From Infirmifilum sp. NZ (GTDB lineage Archaea > Thermoproteota > Thermoprotei > Thermofilales > Thermofilaceae), in the NCBI RefSeq assembly GCF_022693705.1, contig NZ_CP094288.1, positions 484,490-548,489 on the forward strand: a stretch of DNA of 64,000 bases, written 5' to 3'. The notes beneath the pieces were generated by a model. It saw only the letters and a list, made by a program, of their open reading frames with translations. It was not told where the DNA came from and did no database searches. Of the stretch, positions 10,487 to 60,963 are shown one piece after another (position 1 is the stretch's first letter; every line of letters begins with the position of its first letter). Made by a program: the position numbers and the translations under genes.

Positions 10487-10504
10487 GAGGTCGGCCTGCC
10501 CCTC

Positions 10505-10685
10505 CTTTTCTGCCCCCTGCTGGCCCCCTTAAATCTTCGTCATCCTTGGTCGGCCTCGGGGTTGCCCACACGGGGGCGACGCATCGCCTCTTCGGGCCTG
10601 CCCCTCGAGGGGGCTTCCGGGGAGGGGCAACCGGCGACCGCGGCGCCCATTGCGGGCAGCGGCGGCCAACCGCGGGCCAGAGCCT
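10505..10685 (-). ncRNA. GC-rich structured 3' element of TnpB cassette (copy E1)
   Basis: On the minus strand this follows the TnpB-like stop codon. It shares ordered blocks with other places in the window: AGGCCCGAAG (10590-10599), 42 nt, AAGGATGA (10540-10547), 23 nt, GGGCAGAA (10509-10516); the 52.7-kb copy has the same blocks with gaps of 40 and 21 nt. Hairpins include GGCGA-TGCG-TCGCC (10575-10588) and CCCC-TCGA-GGGG. One reading frame through it also resembles a TnpB C-terminal tail (AEQLEALARG, compare AERHLEALSQ of the 58-kb protein), so part may be former coding sequence. Interpreted as the right end and possible guide RNA scaffold; expression is unproven. Confidence 0.5.
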
Positions 10686-11891
10686 CTAGTTGCTCTGCTT
10701 TTTCTGGCTACTTAAGCGGTAGTGCCTCACTAACTTTTCAGCGAGCTCCTCGACCTCGCTTTCCTCTATGAATAGCTTTAGTGCGTGCAACACTGGAACG
10801 CTGTCCCTCTCGAAGGCTCTGCCGCAGCCCGTGCACTTCATAACCCTTGTTTCACCTCTCCTCTCTGCCTTCTCGAGCCTGCTCCCGCAGAGGGGGCAGC
10901 GCTTCGAGGGCAGCGTCCTCTCGATCGCCAGTACTCCATGGAATCCGAGTGCGTTCTCCAATTTCTTTGCGAAGCTGCGCAGAGTTCTCTGCAGGCCGTT
11001 GCCCCTCAAAGACTCGTCGAATGGGACGTCCACGAAGACTATAGCCCTTCTACCCTTAAGCTCCCCCGCTATCTTTGCGACGGCGTTCAGCAATGCGGCC
11101 CTGCGGCGCCTGTAAGCCTTCCTCTGCGCGCACCTCGCGGTGGCCCATGCGCCCGGCTTCCTGGACTTAGCCGCGGCTCGTTGCAGCTCCTTTATCCTCC
11201 TCCAGTTCACCTTTGGTATCTTGAACCTGCGGATCCTGAAGCCGCCGCTCCGCAGGTCGTACGCGAAGAGGTAGAAGCCGTGGCTGCTGTTTATATCTAC
11301 GACCGCGATTACTTCCAAGCCCTCGAGCAGCTCCTCCATGCCCAGGCTGTGCGAGCAGTGGAGCACGAGGTTTATCTCTCCCTCTCCCTTGATGGCGACG
11401 TACCTCGTCAGCCTCCCTCCAGACTCCCTGCAAGCCTCCTCCTGCATGCGAAGCCACCCTAAGCCGCGCTCAGGCAACGGAATACTGTAGGCTCTCCTGT
11501 AAACCCTGACGACCAGCTCATTTCCCCGAAGGTCTGCTCCATGATCCTTCAGCGTCCACGACATCAATGGAAACCTTACGTAGCTCCTCCTCTTCGGCAT
11601 CCTCAGTGCCGCAATGTCCTCGAAAGCCTTCCTGTAGCTCCAGGGAACCTGCTTCCAAACGTCTTCGAGCTCCTCGCCGTCGAGACCGAGCAGCCTCTGC
11701 CAGTAGCGCATCGATGCTCTCGGCTGGTAGACTCTCTCGATGAACTCCCTCAGCTCCTCCGGCAGCTCAGCCCTGAACCTCAGCACCCTGAAGCCTTCAA
11801 CAGTTACCCTGCTATCACGGGGGTCAGCCACACCACTCCCCCACCCGCTTCTCTTCTTTTCCCCGAGAGTGCAACCGACACTATGCGGCAC
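10686..11891 (-). CDS. TnpB-like RuvC/zinc-ribbon nuclease (copy 1)
   Basis: RNA-guided-nuclease-like protein of the IS605 OrfB/TnpB type, in a divergent branch. RuvC-I is VVDINSSHGFYL (D199); RuvC-II is IVFVDVPFDESLRG (D288, E293), where canonical TnpB has Glu at the position of V287; a zinc ribbon has C332, C335, C353, C356; RuvC-III is ERDSVPVLHAL (D363). No Y1 transposase (TnpA) accompanies it, so it cannot be autonomous here. The N-terminal 22 residues look unrelated to protein and a GTG at residue 21 is a likelier start. A broken winged-helix gene lies upstream and a structured GC-rich element downstream, the same order as at 58-60 kb. Confidence 0.8.
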   Translation of the reverse strand: MPHSVGCTLGEKKRSGWGSGVADPRDSRVTVEGFRVLRFRAELPEELREFIERVYQPRASMRYWQRLLGLDGEELEDVWKQVPWSYRKAFEDIAALRMPKRRSYVRFPLMSWTLKDHGADLRGNELVVRVYRRAYSIPLPERGLGWLRMQEEACRESGGRLTRYVAIKGEGEINLVLHCSHSLGMEELLEGLEVIAVVDINSSHGFYLFAYDLRSGGFRIRRFKIPKVNWRRIKELQRAAAKSRKPGAWATARCAQRKAYRRRRAALLNAVAKIAGELKGRRAIVFVDVPFDESLRGNGLQRTLRSFAKKLENALGFHGVLAIERTLPSKRCPLCGSRLEKAERRGETRVMKCTGCGRAFERDSVPVLHALKLFIEESEVEELAEKLVRHYRLSSQKKQSN

Positions 11892-12120
11892 CAGTTTTCT
11901 CGGGGAAGCACCCTGGCCCGTGCCGCTAATGCCGGCTCACCCCTTCACCGGCCAATGCATCGGCGGCGGGCCTCATTCTTCCCTGCACAGAGGGGGTTAA
12001 TATGTGCTCCGATGTTAACGCTGAAAGTATAACATTGTTACACTTCGCTGAAGGCTGAATGCTTCTTCCGCGCCTACGGCTACGTGTGCAAGGCCAGGAT
12101 ATGCACGCACATCGCCACTT

Positions 12121-12340
12121 TCATGCTCCATAGGAGACAGCTCCGGCTGCGCGTCGAATAAACCTCGAGGCGGCGTAGCCGCAGGTCAGCTCCTCGGGGG
12201 CCGTAACCGAGCAGGGCTAGGAGGCCGCAGGTCCTCCCCGTTGGGTAGATGTACCTCAAGTCGCCGACCACCGCCTCTTTTGCGAGGTCGGCCTGTAGCG
12301 GTCTCGTCAGCGGCTCAGCAGCGCTTTGACCCCTCGTCAT
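12121..12340 (-). pseudogene. Broken winged-helix gene upstream of TnpB copy 1
   Basis: The translated segment KEAVVGDLRYIYPTGRTCGL followed by LALLGYG matches the winged-helix protein at 58010-58347 (KEAVVGDARYVYLTERACGL, then LALLGYS). The frame breaks at the run of five C on the minus strand (12196-12200): removing one base continues as GPEELTCGYAASRF, which aligns with the other copy, and ends at TGA 12121-12123. The N-terminal helix is degenerate or shifted. The 230 bp between it and the TnpB-like gene (11892-12120) hold only an inverted TGTTA/TAACA repeat and no gene that I can support. Confidence 0.6.
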
Positions 12341-55171: not shown

Positions 55172-56506
55172 CTACAGCCCCACAATCAACCAGCTCAACC
55201 GGTATATAACGTATAGCAGTGTTATCAGTGCAGCCAAGGCGAGGGCTTCCAGGGAGGTTTTAAAGAACTCCCTTGAGGCCTGGACGGTGAACGTGTAGCC
55301 GAGGACGCTCGTGGAGTAGATCATCCGGCTGTACTCGTAAGCCCTTCTCTCAGGTATGACAGCCGTCTCGGGAATGGCGAGCATGGCCATCAGCACGCCG
55401 ATGAGCTTCAGGAAGGCGGCTAGGATCAGGCCGCTGAATGGAGTTAAAATGCTTGACGCGGAGATCAGGGACGCAACGAGTAGGCCTGCGTAGTTAGCCG
55501 AGACGAGGAAAGCGGAAGCTCGGACTCTACCGAGCCTCTCGTTCAGCTCTGCGAACACCTGCATCCCTAGCAGGTTAGCTCCCGTGAACGTGAGCGAGGT
55601 CATGAAGGAGATCGCGACGTGGGCAGGCGGGTATGGGATGTAGGGGATCAAAGCCGTGAGGAAGGCGTTGATGGCTATAGCCACGAGGTACCCCCTGTAG
55701 GACTTCCAGAAGTACGCTCCCACCAGGCCTCCCAGGTTGCCTGCAACCGACAGAGCCAGCGGGACGTACACTGGAGCGCCCATCTGCTTCAGGAGGGGGC
55801 TCCAGGCTATGCCGACGAGGTTGCTCCCGGCGAAAAGCGCGATGAGGACTATGAACACGACGCTTCCCTTGATCTTCGCTTCCTCGTGGGGTGGCGCGGC
55901 CTCGACGGCTTCCTGGATGCTCGCAGGGACGTTTGGGGTGAGTAGGAGAGTGATGGAGCTGACGAGACCTGCTAGGAATGCCGTGAGGTAGGAGATTAAG
56001 TATGATGTAGGCGCCTGCTGGACAGCGGTGATGAAGGTCATGTAGAGGGAGCCGAGGATGCTGGCCGCGGCGCCTGCCGCCGACCTGTGGACTGAGACCT
56101 CGATGACCTCCCTGGTGGGGAACAGTGTGTAGATCAGTATGCCGAGAGACATGCTCACGAGAACGGAGACGATGTTCCCAGCCAGGTAGTCGGCGGAGAG
56201 CAGGTACGGGTTTGAGAGGAGGAGAGGAGGTAGGAGCCAGAGCACGCGTTCAGCCACGTGGGCTGTGAGGAGCAGGGCGCGAAACCTTCCCGTGACTCTC
56301 CTAGGGTTCCTGTAGAGCTCGTGCGCCAGGAGTATTCCCCCCAGCCCGGTGGGCGCGAGCACGGCTGAGAGCGCGTCGAGCCTGTAGCCGCTGTAGGCCA
56401 TCATCGGCACGAAGAGGCCCCTCGTTATGCTGACGTAGAAGCCTCCGAAGAATGCCTCCGCGACCAGGAGGATCTTCGCCAGCGTCCTCTGGTTAGACCT
56501 CTCCAT
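55172..56506 (-). CDS. MFS-like membrane transporter
   Basis: 444 aa, about twelve spans. Features such as LTAHVAERVLWLLPPLLL, VSMSLGILIYTLFPTREVIEVSVHRS and AGNLGGLVGAYFWKSYRGYLV fit MFS folds, but the standard MFS loop motifs are degraded, so family placement is loose. The N-terminus KILLVAEAFFGGFYVSITRG is a plausible first span. It precedes the MscS-like gene on the same strand. Substrate unknown; a flippase role next to the GT2 gene is a guess. Confidence 0.7.
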   Translation of the reverse strand: MERSNQRTLAKILLVAEAFFGGFYVSITRGLFVPMMAYSGYRLDALSAVLAPTGLGGILLAHELYRNPRRVTGRFRALLLTAHVAERVLWLLPPLLLSNPYLLSADYLAGNIVSVLVSMSLGILIYTLFPTREVIEVSVHRSAAGAAASILGSLYMTFITAVQQAPTSYLISYLTAFLAGLVSSITLLLTPNVPASIQEAVEAAPPHEEAKIKGSVVFIVLIALFAGSNLVGIAWSPLLKQMGAPVYVPLALSVAGNLGGLVGAYFWKSYRGYLVAIAINAFLTALIPYIPYPPAHVAISFMTSLTFTGANLLGMQVFAELNERLGRVRASAFLVSANYAGLLVASLISASSILTPFSGLILAAFLKLIGVLMAMLAIPETAVIPERRAYEYSRMIYSTSVLGYTFTVQASREFFKTSLEALALAALITLLYVIYRLSWLIVGL

Positions 56507-57458: not shown

Positions 57459-57595
57459 TTAGAGACGCGAGCCTTTTATCAATAAAACTAACGCAACGCC
57501 GGCACATCGATCATAGGTAGAGGGCTCGGTCGGCTAAACCAGCGCCGGGAAGCAGCCTTGGGCGTCACGAGGGTATCCGCTACGCACCCCTACCC

Positions 57596-57808
57596 TTAAG
57601 TGGGACGCTCCTCCAGAGCCTCGTAGAGCGAGTCGAAAACATTGGCAAGGTACGTGAGGTCGCTCTTGTCAAGCTTCCTCAGGATCTTCTTGACATTCTT
57701 CTCGTCCATCTTCGAGAACCTGCAGTCGAGCCTTAGAACCCTGAGCACGGCCTCGATGAGCTTGTCCTTCTCGGCGTGCTCCCCCGCGGCACTCGGATCC
57801 TCGTGCAT
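57596..57808 (-). CDS. Small acidic/basic helical protein
   Basis: About 70 aa: EKDKLIEAVLRVLRLDCRFS, then KNVKKILRKLDKSDLTYLANVFDSLYEALEERP, predicted helical. Not recognised. CTAAAAAGT at 57831-57839 lies about 27 bp before ATG 57808, which supports that leaderless start over the one at 57826. Its gene stands alone between the nucleotidyltransferase and the TnpB cassette. Confidence 0.55.
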   Translation of the reverse strand: MHEDPSAAGEHAEKDKLIEAVLRVLRLDCRFSKMDEKNVKKILRKLDKSDLTYLANVFDSLYEALEERPT

Positions 57809-57980
57809 CCAAGTAGACCGTAGCAATGGTACTTTTTAGTCTTTCCCTGGTTTCCTCCCGTGTTCGACCCGCGCTTTCCCTCCCCCTCGAGTGCTTGGTG
57901 GGGGTTGCTGGTGGGTGTTCGGGTGCGGGCTCGTGACCGCTCGCCTCGGAAGACTAGGCGAGCACAGCCCGTGTGAATGC

Positions 57981-57987
57981 TTATAAC
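57981..57987 (+). promoter_or_regulatory. TATA box for winged-helix gene of TnpB cassette 2
   Basis: TTATAAC centred about 27 bp before ATG 58010. It shows that the winged-helix gene ahead of the TnpB-like gene has, or had, its own promoter. The 57840-57980 stretch is GC-rich with short inverted repeats (CTCGCC...GGCGAG around 57940-57962) and no gene. Confidence 0.5.
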
Positions 57988-58009
57988 CCTTCTCTCGCGT
58001 TTAGCTGTG

Positions 58010-58347
58010 ATGGTCGAGGTTGACGGGGAGGTCTGGAGGGCGTTGCGGGGTGGCTCGAGCTGACCCGCCTCACGAAGACGCTCTGGCGCCTCCGCGAGCC
58101 TAAGCCGCTCCGCAGGGCCTTCGGCACGAGGAATTCGAGGTACACAGCCAGCGCCCTCGATAGGCTCCGCTCAGCCGGATTCGTGAAAGAGGCGGTGGTC
58201 GGCGACGCGCGCTACGTCTACCTGACGGAGAGGGCCTGCGGCCTCCTCGCCTTGCTCGGCTACAGCCTCGAGGAGGCGGGGTGCGGGCTCCTTCTCAGGA
58301 AACGTAGTCTAACAGCTTCGGGTAGTCGCCCAGCTCAGCTACCCTGA
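58010..58347 (+). pseudogene. Winged-helix gene with one frame break, upstream of TnpB copy 2
   Basis: ATG 58010 begins MVEVDGEVWRALRG; the frame then breaks in GGGG at 58047-58050. One extra G continues WLELTRLTKTLWRLREP and on through SRYTASALDRLRSAGFVKEA and VVGDARYVYLTERACGLLAL to TGA 58345-58347, a protein of about 112 aa. The segment around ALDRLRSAGFVKE...VYLT reads as recognition helix plus wing. A homologous but more damaged copy lies in the same place before the other TnpB-like gene. It may be a repressor or partner of the cassette, either decayed or misread in a homopolymer. Confidence 0.65.
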
Positions 58348-58497
58348 GCCAGCGGTTGCCCCTTTAGTTGTGTTTTCACTTTCGGTGTTCATTTTCGGCG
58401 CAGGGATATAAGGCCACAAAGCACAGTGTAACGTGGGGCTGAAGCGCAGAAAGGGCTCGGGACCGCAGCGCATGCCAGGCTCCCTTGAGGTGGGAGC

Positions 58498-60060
58498 GTG
58501 GGCTGGGAAAGCTGGGGAAACGGCGAGGGGCTCGCCGACGCCTACAGGGTGTGGGAGATAAAGGCTAACAGGGAGGAGAGGCAGAGGATGCAGCGACTCT
58601 ACCTCAGGCTGTCGAGCGCAGTCAGGCAGGCCTGCAAGGCCCTCGAAGAGAGGCTCGGCAAGGATTTCAGAGAAGATCCAAAGAAGTTCAGCGAAGAGTT
58701 AATCGGGGAGGCCTCGAAGACGGCTGGGCTGCCGAAGGGCCTGTTCTGGTACGCCGTGGAGTGGCGCAGGATGGTCGCGGAGGCCAAGGGGAAGTCTAAG
58801 AGGCGTAGCGGGTTCACTCCGCCTCCGGTGCCGCTGCTAGTCAAGGTGGTCGGCAACGGCGATAGGCTACACGGCAACGGTAGCGCCGTAGCGGTGCTTG
58901 AAGCATCCAGGAATGAGCTACGCATTCCGAGCGCAGGTGTCGCGGTGAGGCTGAGGCCATCGCTGGTCAAAGCGGTGCTGGAGGACGTACAGAGGTTTGG
59001 CGACGTTAAGCTGACCTTGCAGCTAACGGCTAAAGGTAGGCTGAGGCTTATTGCGCACCGCGTTGTCAAGCAGGTAAGGTGGGGCGGCGAGGGCAGGCTG
59101 GCCGTCATAGCATTGGACGTGAACAGCTCTCACGGTTTGTACTTAATGGCCTTCACCTTCGACAGCAATGTGAGGCTGGTTGCGCAGCGCGTGTTTAAGC
59201 CGCCGAACACCACGTTGCTGAGGCTACTAGCAGCAATTATGACCAGCTACTCCGAGGTTAAGTGCTGGAGTGAGGCCGTCAAGAGGTTCAGGCAGAGGAG
59301 GGACGTCAGGAGTCTACAGAGAGAGGGGAGGGGCTCCGCGGTGGAGGGGGCCTTGAGGCTCGCGGAGAGGCTGAGGGCGAAGATAAACCTGACCTCTGAG
59401 AGAGCAGAGCACATAGCTGGGCAGGCGTCGAGGAAGGTGAGGAAGCTTAACGAGGACTGGGTCAGAGGCGTGCTCAAGGAGCTGAGAGCGTTGATAAGAA
59501 AGCTGAGGGATCAGGGTTACACTGTCGTCATCGTCGTGGACGTGCCGCAAGCCGAGTCCCTGAGGGGAACAAAGCTACAGAGAACGCTACTCAGAGCGGC
59601 GAGGAGGCTGGAGAACATGGCCTGGTACGAGGGGGCGAGGTGGTTCAAGCCTGACAATAACATCTCGGGCAAGCGGTGCCCCATCTGCGGGAAAGAGGGG
59701 GTGGAGGTGCAGAGAAGGTACTACAAGTGCCCTAAGTGCAACCTAGTTTACGGCAGGGACTGGACAGCAGCCTTCAACGCCGCAAAGCTCTTCCTGAGGG
59801 TTTGCAGAGCGGAGAGGCACCTCGAAGCCTTGAGCCAGTGGCTCCAGAGCCACAAGACAGCCCTAACGCCGGCAGGCCCCGGCCCCAGTTCCCCCGGCTC
59901 CCCGAGCAGGGGCGGTCCGGGGGTGCCGCGCGCGGCGCGAGGAGGGGATGTGCCCGCGGCAACGCGGGCAGAAGGCCGCCCAGCCAGGGCGGCCACCCCG
60001 CAAGGGGCACCCATGACACCCCGCAAGGGGGGCCCTCAGACCAGTGAAGGGGGCAGATGA
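58498..60060 (+). CDS. TnpB-like RuvC/zinc-ribbon nuclease (copy 2)
   Basis: 520 aa. RuvC-I is IALDVNSSHGLYL (D207); RuvC-II is VIVVDVPQAESLRG (D348, E353); zinc-ribbon cysteines C394, C397, C411, C414; RuvC-III is GRDWTAAFNAAKL (D421). Shares with copy 1 the family motifs NSSHG(F/L)YL and DVPxxESLRGxxLQRTL, but the N-terminal halves differ strongly. As in copy 1, the usual RuvC-II Glu is Val, followed by Asp. The last 75 codons are Gly/Pro/Arg-rich because the frame runs through a hairpin-rich element. No TnpA is present. Confidence 0.85.
   Translation: MGWESWGNGEGLADAYRVWEIKANREERQRMQRLYLRLSSAVRQACKALEERLGKDFREDPKKFSEELIGEASKTAGLPKGLFWYAVEWRRMVAEAKGKSKRRSGFTPPPVPLLVKVVGNGDRLHGNGSAVAVLEASRNELRIPSAGVAVRLRPSLVKAVLEDVQRFGDVKLTLQLTAKGRLRLIAHRVVKQVRWGGEGRLAVIALDVNSSHGLYLMAFTFDSNVRLVAQRVFKPPNTTLLRLLAAIMTSYSEVKCWSEAVKRFRQRRDVRSLQREGRGSAVEGALRLAERLRAKINLTSERAEHIAGQASRKVRKLNEDWVRGVLKELRALIRKLRDQGYTVVIVVDVPQAESLRGTKLQRTLLRAARRLENMAWYEGARWFKPDNNISGKRCPICGKEGVEVQRRYYKCPKCNLVYGRDWTAAFNAAKLFLRVCRAERHLEALSQWLQSHKTALTPAGPGPSSPGSPSRGGPGVPRAARGGDVPAATRAEGRPARAATPQGAPMTPRKGGPQTSEGGR
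59935..60057 (+). ncRNA. Hairpin-rich 3' element, possible guide RNA (copy E2)
   Basis: Inside and at the end of the TnpB-like frame. Perfect stems: TGCCCGCG-GCAA-CGCGGGCA (59951-59970), GGCCGCCC-AGCCA-GGGCGGCC (59974-59994), then CCCC-GCAA-GGGG at 59996-60007 and again at 60019-60030. GCAA loops are stable GNRA tetraloops. The terminal AAGGGGGGCC...GGGGGCAGA (last block 60049-60057) matches AAGGGGGCC...GGGGGCAGA at the end of E1. In TnpB systems the omega RNA overlaps the 3' end of the gene and right end in just this way. Expression and guide function are inferred. Confidence 0.55.
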
Positions 60061-60078
60061 GGCCAGGCGCGGCCTTTC

Positions 60079-60963
60079 CTACGGGTAAGCTTCCGTGCAC
60101 TCGCCTCTGAGCGGGCAGCGATCGCAGAGCCTCCTCGAGCAGTAGGTCTTGCTGTGAACGTAGAACACCGTCTGAACCCAGCCCGCCAGCTCGCCCAGAT
60201 CCCTGGAGGCCCTCCACCTCAGGCACCTGTCCCGGATGGGGCACTCGTCGCACCTGTGCTTAGCGCAGTACTCTTTGGCTGGCGGCCGCAACCCTGCGAA
60301 TATTCCGAGCCTCGAGCTCATCGCCACGAAGTGCCTGTCGATTGGGGGAGAGGTGGGGTCTGCGAGGGCGTATAGGATAAAGGCGTCAGCGGTCTTCGGG
60401 CCGACGTAGGGGCTGCTGACGAGGCGCCTCCTCAGCTCGAACCTGTCCCCGTTGAACGCCTCGGGGAGGCTTTCCAGCGCTTGAGGCAGCCTCTTCGCCT
60501 GGAAGCTCGGGATAGCCTTGGAGGCTATAGTGGCGGCTTCATGCGGGTTGTTCGTCTGGGACCACAGGTTGCTCGTCCACGAGAGGACGTTGCTGTGGTA
60601 GCTCGTGTTCTGGCTGAGGAAAACCGCCACGAATATGTGTAGGGGGTCGAGGGGGTCGACGGAGAGGCTTAGGGGCGCGTACACGAGGCGGAGGGTCTCG
60701 ACCAGGTAGCTGAGGCTCCTTTTCACCGTCGCCCTCTCGAATACCTCCCTGTACCACAACCCGCTGATGTAGCTTGTCGGCTCCTCGCTGCAGGTCGACT
60801 CGATCACGCCGCCGACCTGTCTGAGCGCGCAGCCCCTCTCCCGCCCCGCTACCTTAACGTAGCTGTCCTCCCCCTCCGGCTTCAGCAGGGATAGGGAGAA
60901 GGAGGGGTAGAGCGTGAGCGAGAGGTCGATCCCCCTGCTGTCGAGCACGGCTTTCGCGGCCAT
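60079..60963 (-). CDS. HhH-GPD DNA glycosylase with two FeS-type cysteine clusters
   Basis: Endonuclease III-like base-excision enzyme. AVFLSQNTSYHSNVL, then SSPYVGPKTADAFILYALA (helix-hairpin-helix with catalytic Lys) and PPIDRHFVAMSSRLGI with the catalytic Asp. The C-terminus has two cysteine groups with identical spacing CX4CX2CX5C (CAKHRC.EC.....C and CSRRLC.RC.....C), whereas standard endonuclease III has one CX6CX2CX5C. The N-terminal 110 residues look like an added beta domain, as in 8-oxoguanine-type glycosylases. Lesion specificity unknown. Confidence 0.85.
   Translation of the reverse strand: MAAKAVLDSRGIDLSLTLYPSFSLSLLKPEGEDSYVKVAGRERGCALRQVGGVIESTCSEEPTSYISGLWYREVFERATVKRSLSYLVETLRLVYAPLSLSVDPLDPLHIFVAVFLSQNTSYHSNVLSWTSNLWSQTNNPHEAATIASKAIPSFQAKRLPQALESLPEAFNGDRFELRRRLVSSPYVGPKTADAFILYALADPTSPPIDRHFVAMSSRLGIFAGLRPPAKEYCAKHRCDECPIRDRCLRWRASRDLGELAGWVQTVFYVHSKTYCSRRLCDRCPLRGECTEAYP

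Follow-up and report, generated by a model that had tools for sequence, protein, structure and literature searches.

Why should a winged helix-turn-helix (wHTH) gene, a TnpB-like gene, and a structured 3′ stretch follow one another twice within one short piece of an archaeal chromosome? The window analyzed here is a 64,000-nucleotide stretch of the complete 1.83-Mb genome of a Thermofilum species, a hot-spring archaeon (genome G000). It carries a wHTH coding stretch, a TnpB-like open reading frame (ORF), and a GC-rich structured 3′ stretch, in this order, at positions 58010 to 60057 on the plus strand, and the identical three-part order at 12340 to 10505 on the minus strand. Sequence comparison within G000 and with a second genome labeled as the same species (Thermofilum NZ13; G013) identifies the two loci as copies of one mobile-element family, and this is why the three-part order, noticed in an original prediction made from the letters alone, is real rather than a chance arrangement. 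As read from the aligned copies, the full element consists of a left end (LE), the wHTH gene, a gene for either a type A or a type B TnpB, and a right end (RE). Of the G000 TnpB loci examined, 10 of 13 have a wHTH gene or its remnant upstream in the same orientation, as do 13 of the 19 judgeable loci in G013. The latter count becomes 11 of 17 if loci L142 and L191, counted solely because a wHTH was found, are dropped; 9 further G013 loci, of 28 examined, lack upstream DNA.

The first window copy is a type A element that extends from LE to RE at 57820 to 60074 (plus strand). Homology with other loci of its own genome spans the interval from near 57820 to near 60074, and in comparisons of window positions 57500 to 60600 with those loci, the flanks beyond these two points were unrelated among the G000 copies. 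The shared, sharp ends and unrelated flanks therefore place all three parts inside one element, and linkage of the wHTH and TnpB genes is kept because both sit between its ends. The wHTH gene is thus not random flanking DNA, the outcome that the original prediction had named as its refutation, and its description of a wHTH-TnpB unit without TnpA holds, since both genes are within an element that contains no TnpA. The element is longer than first proposed: it runs past GGGGGCAGA, where the 3′ stretch had been thought to end, by 17 nucleotides (nt) in copy 1 and by 10 nt in copy 2. A counterpart of copy 1 occupies the same site in G013 with 93.5% identity (L190; its right part is lost to a contig end), and by this comparison copy 1, being common to both genomes, is the older insertion.

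The second window copy (L083), at 10499 to 12283 on the minus strand, is a type B element that is 5′ truncated inside the wHTH gene, and comparison with the empty allele (L284) showed that its site is unoccupied in G013. It is bounded by a 12-bp exact direct repeat, CAGGCCGACCTC, the left copy of which (12284 to 12295, minus strand) represents the target duplication and the right copy of which lies at 10487 to 10498 (minus strand); only one copy is present in the empty allele. A full LE for this copy was sought and none was found; the empty allele shows the 5′ truncation. The RE and TnpB of copy 2 (RE-B and TnpB-B) differ from those of copy 1 (RE-A and TnpB-A).

A joint query with LE, RE-A, and RE-B gave at least 43 matches in G000 and at least 46 in G013 (with 40 first-look candidates scored in each genome, of 57 and 108, respectively). 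TnpB type equaled RE type in all 38 loci with an RE (27 type A and 11 type B; no RE was found in 3 of 41), and the LE accompanies both TnpB types (type B examples are L081 and L128). Elements with LE and RE that do not contain a full TnpB also exist (e.g., L171, L168, L170, and L097). One variant, L087 (G000 positions 216964 to 219899), has LE, wHTH, and RE-A with a 310-codon, membrane-protein-like ORF in the TnpB position, either as cargo or as a nested insertion.

How the element enters its sites was read from 39 pairs of occupied and empty alleles (27 type A and 12 type B), with empty alleles in G013, G000, or the genome G011. The right junction is precise and falls at a type-specific motif resembling a target-adjacent motif (TAM), YHC for type A and CAG|S for type B. 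Among the 27 type A pairs, position −3 was a pyrimidine in 26, −2 was not G in 26, −1 was C in 22, and −4 was not G in all 27; among the 12 type B pairs, −3 was C in 10, −2 was A in 9, and +1 was C or G in 11. Binomial values for the motif rest on assumed base frequencies. The motif was first noticed in 10 type A pairs, and the 17 later pairs had a pyrimidine at −3 in 16 cases and C at −1 in 13. The counts include L135, L181, and L083, with shifted alignments, and L141, with a weak one; the right-end position was shifted by hand for L137, L129, L181, and L083, and L077 (two sites), L092, L093, and L094 were excluded since both alleles were occupied. At its own right end, the element has a sequence that is similar but not equal to the motif: all 27 type A rows have G at −3, and 10 of the 12 type B rows read GAG|C. 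A comparison of 39 type A and 22 type B right flanks in register revealed no greater similarity than at control offsets; donor guides thus appear not to select the targets, and guide-directed insertion, one candidate considered, was rejected on this ground.

The left junction is as variable as the right is precise. It was resolved in 18 of 38 pairs and comprised 8 target duplications (5 to 14 bp), 2 junctions near zero, and 8 target deletions (10 to 484 bp). The duplications measured 5 bp (L087), 6 bp (L168), 9 bp (L076 and L080), 11 bp (L138, L096, and L097), and, as aligned, 14 bp in the second window copy, where the exact repeat is 12 bp. The near-zero cases were L171, which is +4 as aligned and read as approximately zero, and L140 (G013:C28:62000-69000), which has no duplication and in which ∼60 bp of extra, filler-like DNA separates the left flank from the LE. 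Deletions removed 10 bp (L170), 16 bp (L135), 62 bp (L129), 66 bp (L079), 116 bp (L136), 316 bp (L075), 348 bp (L078), and 484 bp (L133), with some lengths varying by 1 to 4 bp according to the way in which the final bases of the right end are assigned. Three of the copies are 5′ truncated: L083 and L138 start inside the wHTH gene and have duplications, and L129 starts near the 3′ end of that gene and has a deletion. L096 begins with an apparent piece of LE ahead of a second, fuller LE. Left flanks matched the empty alleles at 82.6 to 99.6% identity (at least 91% in 16 of 18). Where L078 and L075 of G000 face L205 and L206 of G013, ∼350 and ∼315 bp have been replaced, and this DNA appears to be part of host coding sequence.

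Covariation supports the view that the RE functions as a structured RNA, whose expression is predicted, and so agrees with the structured 3′ element first proposed. RE-A (59868 to 60074, plus strand) is an omega-RNA-like stretch whose last helix closes at the element end; 30 copies gave 50 double-change cells, compared with an average of 15.5 in shuffles. RE-B (10499 to 10673, minus strand) is specific to type B, following TnpB-B at all 11 type B loci in which an RE was found, and gave 10 double-change cells against a shuffle mean of 1.9. Both values also exceeded those of slid structures, and Rfam had no match up to an E value of 0.1 for the four loci searched. RE-A and RE-B alike have a helix that closes at the element terminus, immediately ahead of the right flank, and this is the place from which a TnpB guide begins according to the ISDra2 work (PMC8612924). 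By that description of TnpB biology, the right flank of copy 1 at 60075 to 60094 (plus strand) would stand in the guide position.

The TnpB-A gene (58498 to 60060, plus strand; 520 codons) matches PF07282 above the cutoff and has a predicted Cas12f/TnpB-like fold. Its relatives align up to approximately residue 456 (position 59868); the window ORF continues into the right end, while most other full copies stop between approximately residues 456 and 520. The TnpB-B gene (10686 to 11891, minus strand; 401 codons) was recognized from its ORF and its alignment with relatives, with a PF07282 match below the cutoff. The two proteins are 29% identical over their alignment, bearing out the divergence noted originally. 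The TnpB model (pLDDT, 88.7) retrieved AsCas12f (Foldseek E value of 1.3e-10; TMq, 0.45) and ISFba1 TnpB (1.4e-8; TMq, 0.42), whereas a sequence search with TnpB matched no PDB chain. An alignment of 36 TnpB sequences, which included relatives from other species, shows the aspartates D207 and D348 without variation and D421 at least 90% conserved (L080 ends before it); assignment of these three residues as the RuvC triad follows from their order and strand position in the model, with no residue-level superposition. The zinc-ribbon cysteines C394, C397, C411, and C414 are invariant in the alignment. Median omega (ratio of nonsynonymous to synonymous substitution rates) was 0.27 for 14 TnpB-A and 0.22 for 7 TnpB-B genes, all chosen copies. 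Hypermutation at insertion was considered as a source of copy divergence and set aside, as pairwise omega ranged from 0.16 to 0.53 in all sets of chosen open copies.

Both wHTH genes of the window turned out to be broken. In copy 1 (58010 to 58344, plus strand), frame breaks and comparison with open-frame copies elsewhere revealed a frameshift near the start and a deletion of the DNA after it (junction at 58275 to 58286). Only a 3′ part, recognized by sequence match at 12080 to 12283 (minus strand), is left in copy 2, and the wHTH-containing ORF there consists of flanking DNA joined to a wHTH gene whose 5′ side was cut by the insertion. The wHTH family has 25 matches in G000 and at least 51 in G013 (57 of 90 candidates scored). 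Open copies look to be under purifying selection, with a median omega of 0.32 for 13 chosen open copies, a choice that biases the value downward, and of 0.35 for three open copies from elements that have no TnpB. The wHTH-TnpB linkage, which had seemed maintained rather than recently copied, is not simply old, given the strain-specific insertions that include the second window locus. The wHTH model has a putative winged-helix fold (pLDDT, 75). Its PDB matches include MarR, ArsR, and TubR proteins among the best, none at an E value of 0.001 or below, and Pfam, PHROGs, and NCBIfam offered no clear family (best, DUF6293_C with an E value of 0.05 and a PHROG of unknown function with an E value of 0.007). 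A solo open wHTH gene occurs in G000 (443994 to 444326; L088) and in G013 (C1:307513-307845), with a dS of 0.05 and a dN of 0.02 between them. No LE or RE was found in the stretch examined around the G000 gene, and the pair is possibly a domesticated copy.

A palindrome with the consensus TARCAATGYTA may be the operator to which the wHTH protein binds, at the left end and in wHTH-TnpB gaps. At the LE of copy 1 it appears as GTAGCAATGGTAC (57820 to 57832, plus strand; consensus match at 57821 to 57831 with 1 mismatch), and it is present at the left end of many copies. An internal palindrome, TAACAATGTTA, lies between the wHTH remnant and TnpB-B in copy 2 (12030 to 12040, minus strand), at the same place as in other copies, and is a candidate operator; one more site is present in the window at 55214. 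Exact matches numbered 22 in the examined loci, which are element rich and partly overlapping, compared with 0 to 2 in five shuffles.

Distribution of the wHTH gene is narrow. The original prediction had looked to other Thermoproteota for repeated adjacency, and the family was found in 2 of the 81 genomes of the class, both of one species, with no match in the other 79 (E value of 1e-4), so that adjacency is not widely conserved. No wHTH relatives were detected among plasmids and phages (one query protein each) or viral contigs, and viral contigs contained two weak TnpB relatives. None of the 12 TnpB relatives examined in genomes G015, G016, and G009 has an adjoining wHTH gene (∼0.1 kb upstream was available for L154), and the family search found no wHTH anywhere in these three genomes. 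Five loci in G015 (L144 to L148) encode TnpB relatives of 34 to 39% identity in ∼1.7-kb elements with their own conserved ends and no wHTH. In the open-licence literature, we found no account of TnpB in Thermofilum or of a TnpB and winged-helix arrangement.

The best explanation of the whole is probably a family of wHTH-TnpB elements that combines guide-RNA-directed cutting, repression by the wHTH protein, and one-sided insertion. TnpB would use bound RE RNA as a guide scaffold and the right flank as the guide, and would cut empty alleles that carry the TAM motif beside the guide sequence, after which homologous repair would restore the element. The occupied allele would be protected by its own right end, where G at −3 replaces the pyrimidine of targets. 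We infer these activities (RNA binding, use of the flank as guide, and cutting of empty alleles) by comparison with characterized TnpB systems. The wHTH protein would repress the element by binding the left-end palindrome and any internal one that precedes TnpB. Our best guess at the function of the wHTH-TnpB-RE unit is accordingly close to one of the two options first offered, a self-regulated guide-nuclease cassette. New insertions would be one sided: a right-end joint would form first at the motif, and an imprecise left-end joint would follow, giving rise to duplications, target deletions, or 5′-truncated copies; the material copied could be DNA or RNA, and the joining enzyme would not be a Y1 transposase detectable by Pfam in G000 or G013. 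More tentatively, and as a proposal to which we give limited credence, the element may multiply without any known kind of transposase: TnpB and RE RNA would mark a TAM-like target, the right end would be joined first, and the rest would be copied in by a target- or break-primed reaction, under control of the wHTH repressor.

Several observations weigh against this explanation. No left junction was obtained for 20 of the 38 pairs (L141 lies outside the 38), and because pairs were found via right ends, 3′-truncated insertions would be missed. For long strain-specific copies, the best long match elsewhere in the DNA examined is only ∼70 to 82% identical, and no parent copy was seen. Short copies are closer (88.7% over 300 of 388 bp for L097 and 93.4% over 256 of 335 bp for L170), as are right-end stretches of some long strain-specific copies (85 to 92%); import from a larger pool or loss of the parents is possible. 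The type B copy of the window has an altered right end at which CAG|S is not clean. Pairs that show a double change number 7 in RE-A, which is not clearly more than the shuffle mean of 5.3, with 37 of 500 shuffles reaching 7, and related sequences may beat shuffles without any structure. The RuvC-II residue is usually Glu in TnpB nucleases, and the corresponding position (D348) is Asp in all 36 aligned TnpBs, making nuclease activity less than certain; the best Cas12f/TnpB chains also give low TMq values (0.42 to 0.47). The wHTH fold is of medium confidence with weak PDB matches (best E value, 0.016), and the internal palindrome occurs in only 10 of 20 wHTH-TnpB gaps when up to 2 mismatches are allowed and in 8 of 20 with up to 1.

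Other routes of insertion fit parts of the same junction data. Capture of element DNA at TnpB-made breaks, with the right end attached through microhomology and the left by end joining, would account for a motif specific to TnpB type, the loose left junction, and last element bases that often equal target bases. TnpB and Cas12 cut inside the guided target, away from the motif, whereas the joint here sits at the motif itself, and right flanks no more alike than controls suggest that the donor guide does not pick the site; we consider this route rather unlikely.

Retroposon-like, target-primed copying of RNA, in which the 3′ end of a transcript at the RE is copied at a nick beside the motif, with the 5′ end attached late or truncated, is somewhat harder to sustain, and we regard it as unlikely. 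Non-LTR (long terminal repeat) retrotransposons are marked by a precise 3′ joint, 5′ truncation, and duplications or target deletions, and this family, sampled through right ends, shows the precise 3′ junction at a motif, the 5′ truncations (L083, L138, and L129), the duplications and deletions, and a lack of visible terminal inverted repeats. It differs from them in its archaeal host, in having no tail seen at the 3′ junction, and in the lack of any match to the reverse transcriptase domain RVT_1 (PF00078) in the complete G000 genome (G013 was not searched); 3′-truncated copies lie outside the sampling.

Still less probable is that the family is a decayed IS605/IS1341-type element, which a Y1 TnpA mobilizes in trans by single-strand peel-and-paste transposition. 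Much of the architecture is IS605-like, namely, the TnpB gene, the left-end palindrome, the structured RE, a target motif like the element's own right end, and, as in IS200/IS605, no terminal inverted repeats on comparison of the ends by eye; L171, with a duplication near zero, would fit as well. A Y1 gene is present in one of 17 genomes of the taxonomic family, that of the same-genus G011 (G011:C1:409638-409994; L289), which has no match to TnpB (E value of 1e-20) or wHTH. The Y1 transposase family PF01797, however, matched nothing in either G000 or G013 (serine and DDE transposases lay outside this search). IS200/IS605 elements are described in PMC7290912 and PMC8612924 as making no target duplication, in contrast to the 8 of 18 resolved junctions with duplications and 8 of 18 with deletions. 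Because of the missing Y1 match together with these duplications and deletions, canonical peel-and-paste transposition does not fit the junctions as reconstructed here.

An account of the haloarchaeon Haloquadratum (PMC3119063) describes IS605-type elements with no target duplications, IS1341-type copies that are very diverse and mostly without an adjoining TnpA, which would also suit a Y1 origin, and deletion-coupled insertions that lack a targeting sequence. The elements described here resemble the IS1341 group in having TnpB between element ends, no TnpA, a structured RE, and very diverse copies. They differ in that TnpB is not the sole gene, an extra wHTH gene or its remnant being present at most judgeable loci in both genomes, in that 16 of the 18 resolved insertions have a duplication or deletion, and in that two TnpB types share one LE.

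Movement of the ends in trans by a DDE transposase encoded in the host genome is as improbable as the Y1 route, although the several duplications of ∼8 to 11 bp would suit it; the one-sided motif, the 5′-truncated copies, the large target deletions, and the lack of visible terminal inverted repeats all speak against it. A TnpB-derived RNA-guided repressor akin to TldR, a nuclease-dead TnpB regulator in which a TnpB-like protein lies near a regulatory gene, is very improbable, since the adjoining regulator gene and the Asp for Glu at RuvC-II are outweighed by the retained catalytic aspartates and zinc ribbon, which make a dead-TnpB regulator, and with it the regulator co-opted from TnpB first suggested, unlikely, and by elements that are mobile rather than fixed beside host genes.

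Among known systems, the wHTH-TnpB family is also comparable to OMEGA (obligate mobile element-guided activity) TnpB and its omega-RNA, as in the ISDra2 and ISFba1 TnpBs. The predicted fold, the zinc ribbon, the covarying RE RNA, a TAM-like motif beside the putative guide position, and a right end that resembles the motif without equaling it are shared, and in ISDra2 the target motif doubles as the TAM that licenses TnpB cutting, as PMC8612924 reports. Differences are the RuvC-II Asp in place of Glu, a junction that is not of the Y1 type, and nuclease activity that here is predicted.

The autonomy of IS1341 elements is described as unclear in PMC9956272. TnpB-only elements are widespread, and the Thermofilum family offers paired alleles, a type-specific motif, and a junction signature with which the question of autonomy becomes testable. 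If TnpB does take part in insertion, the family would link guide-RNA nucleases directly to transposition.

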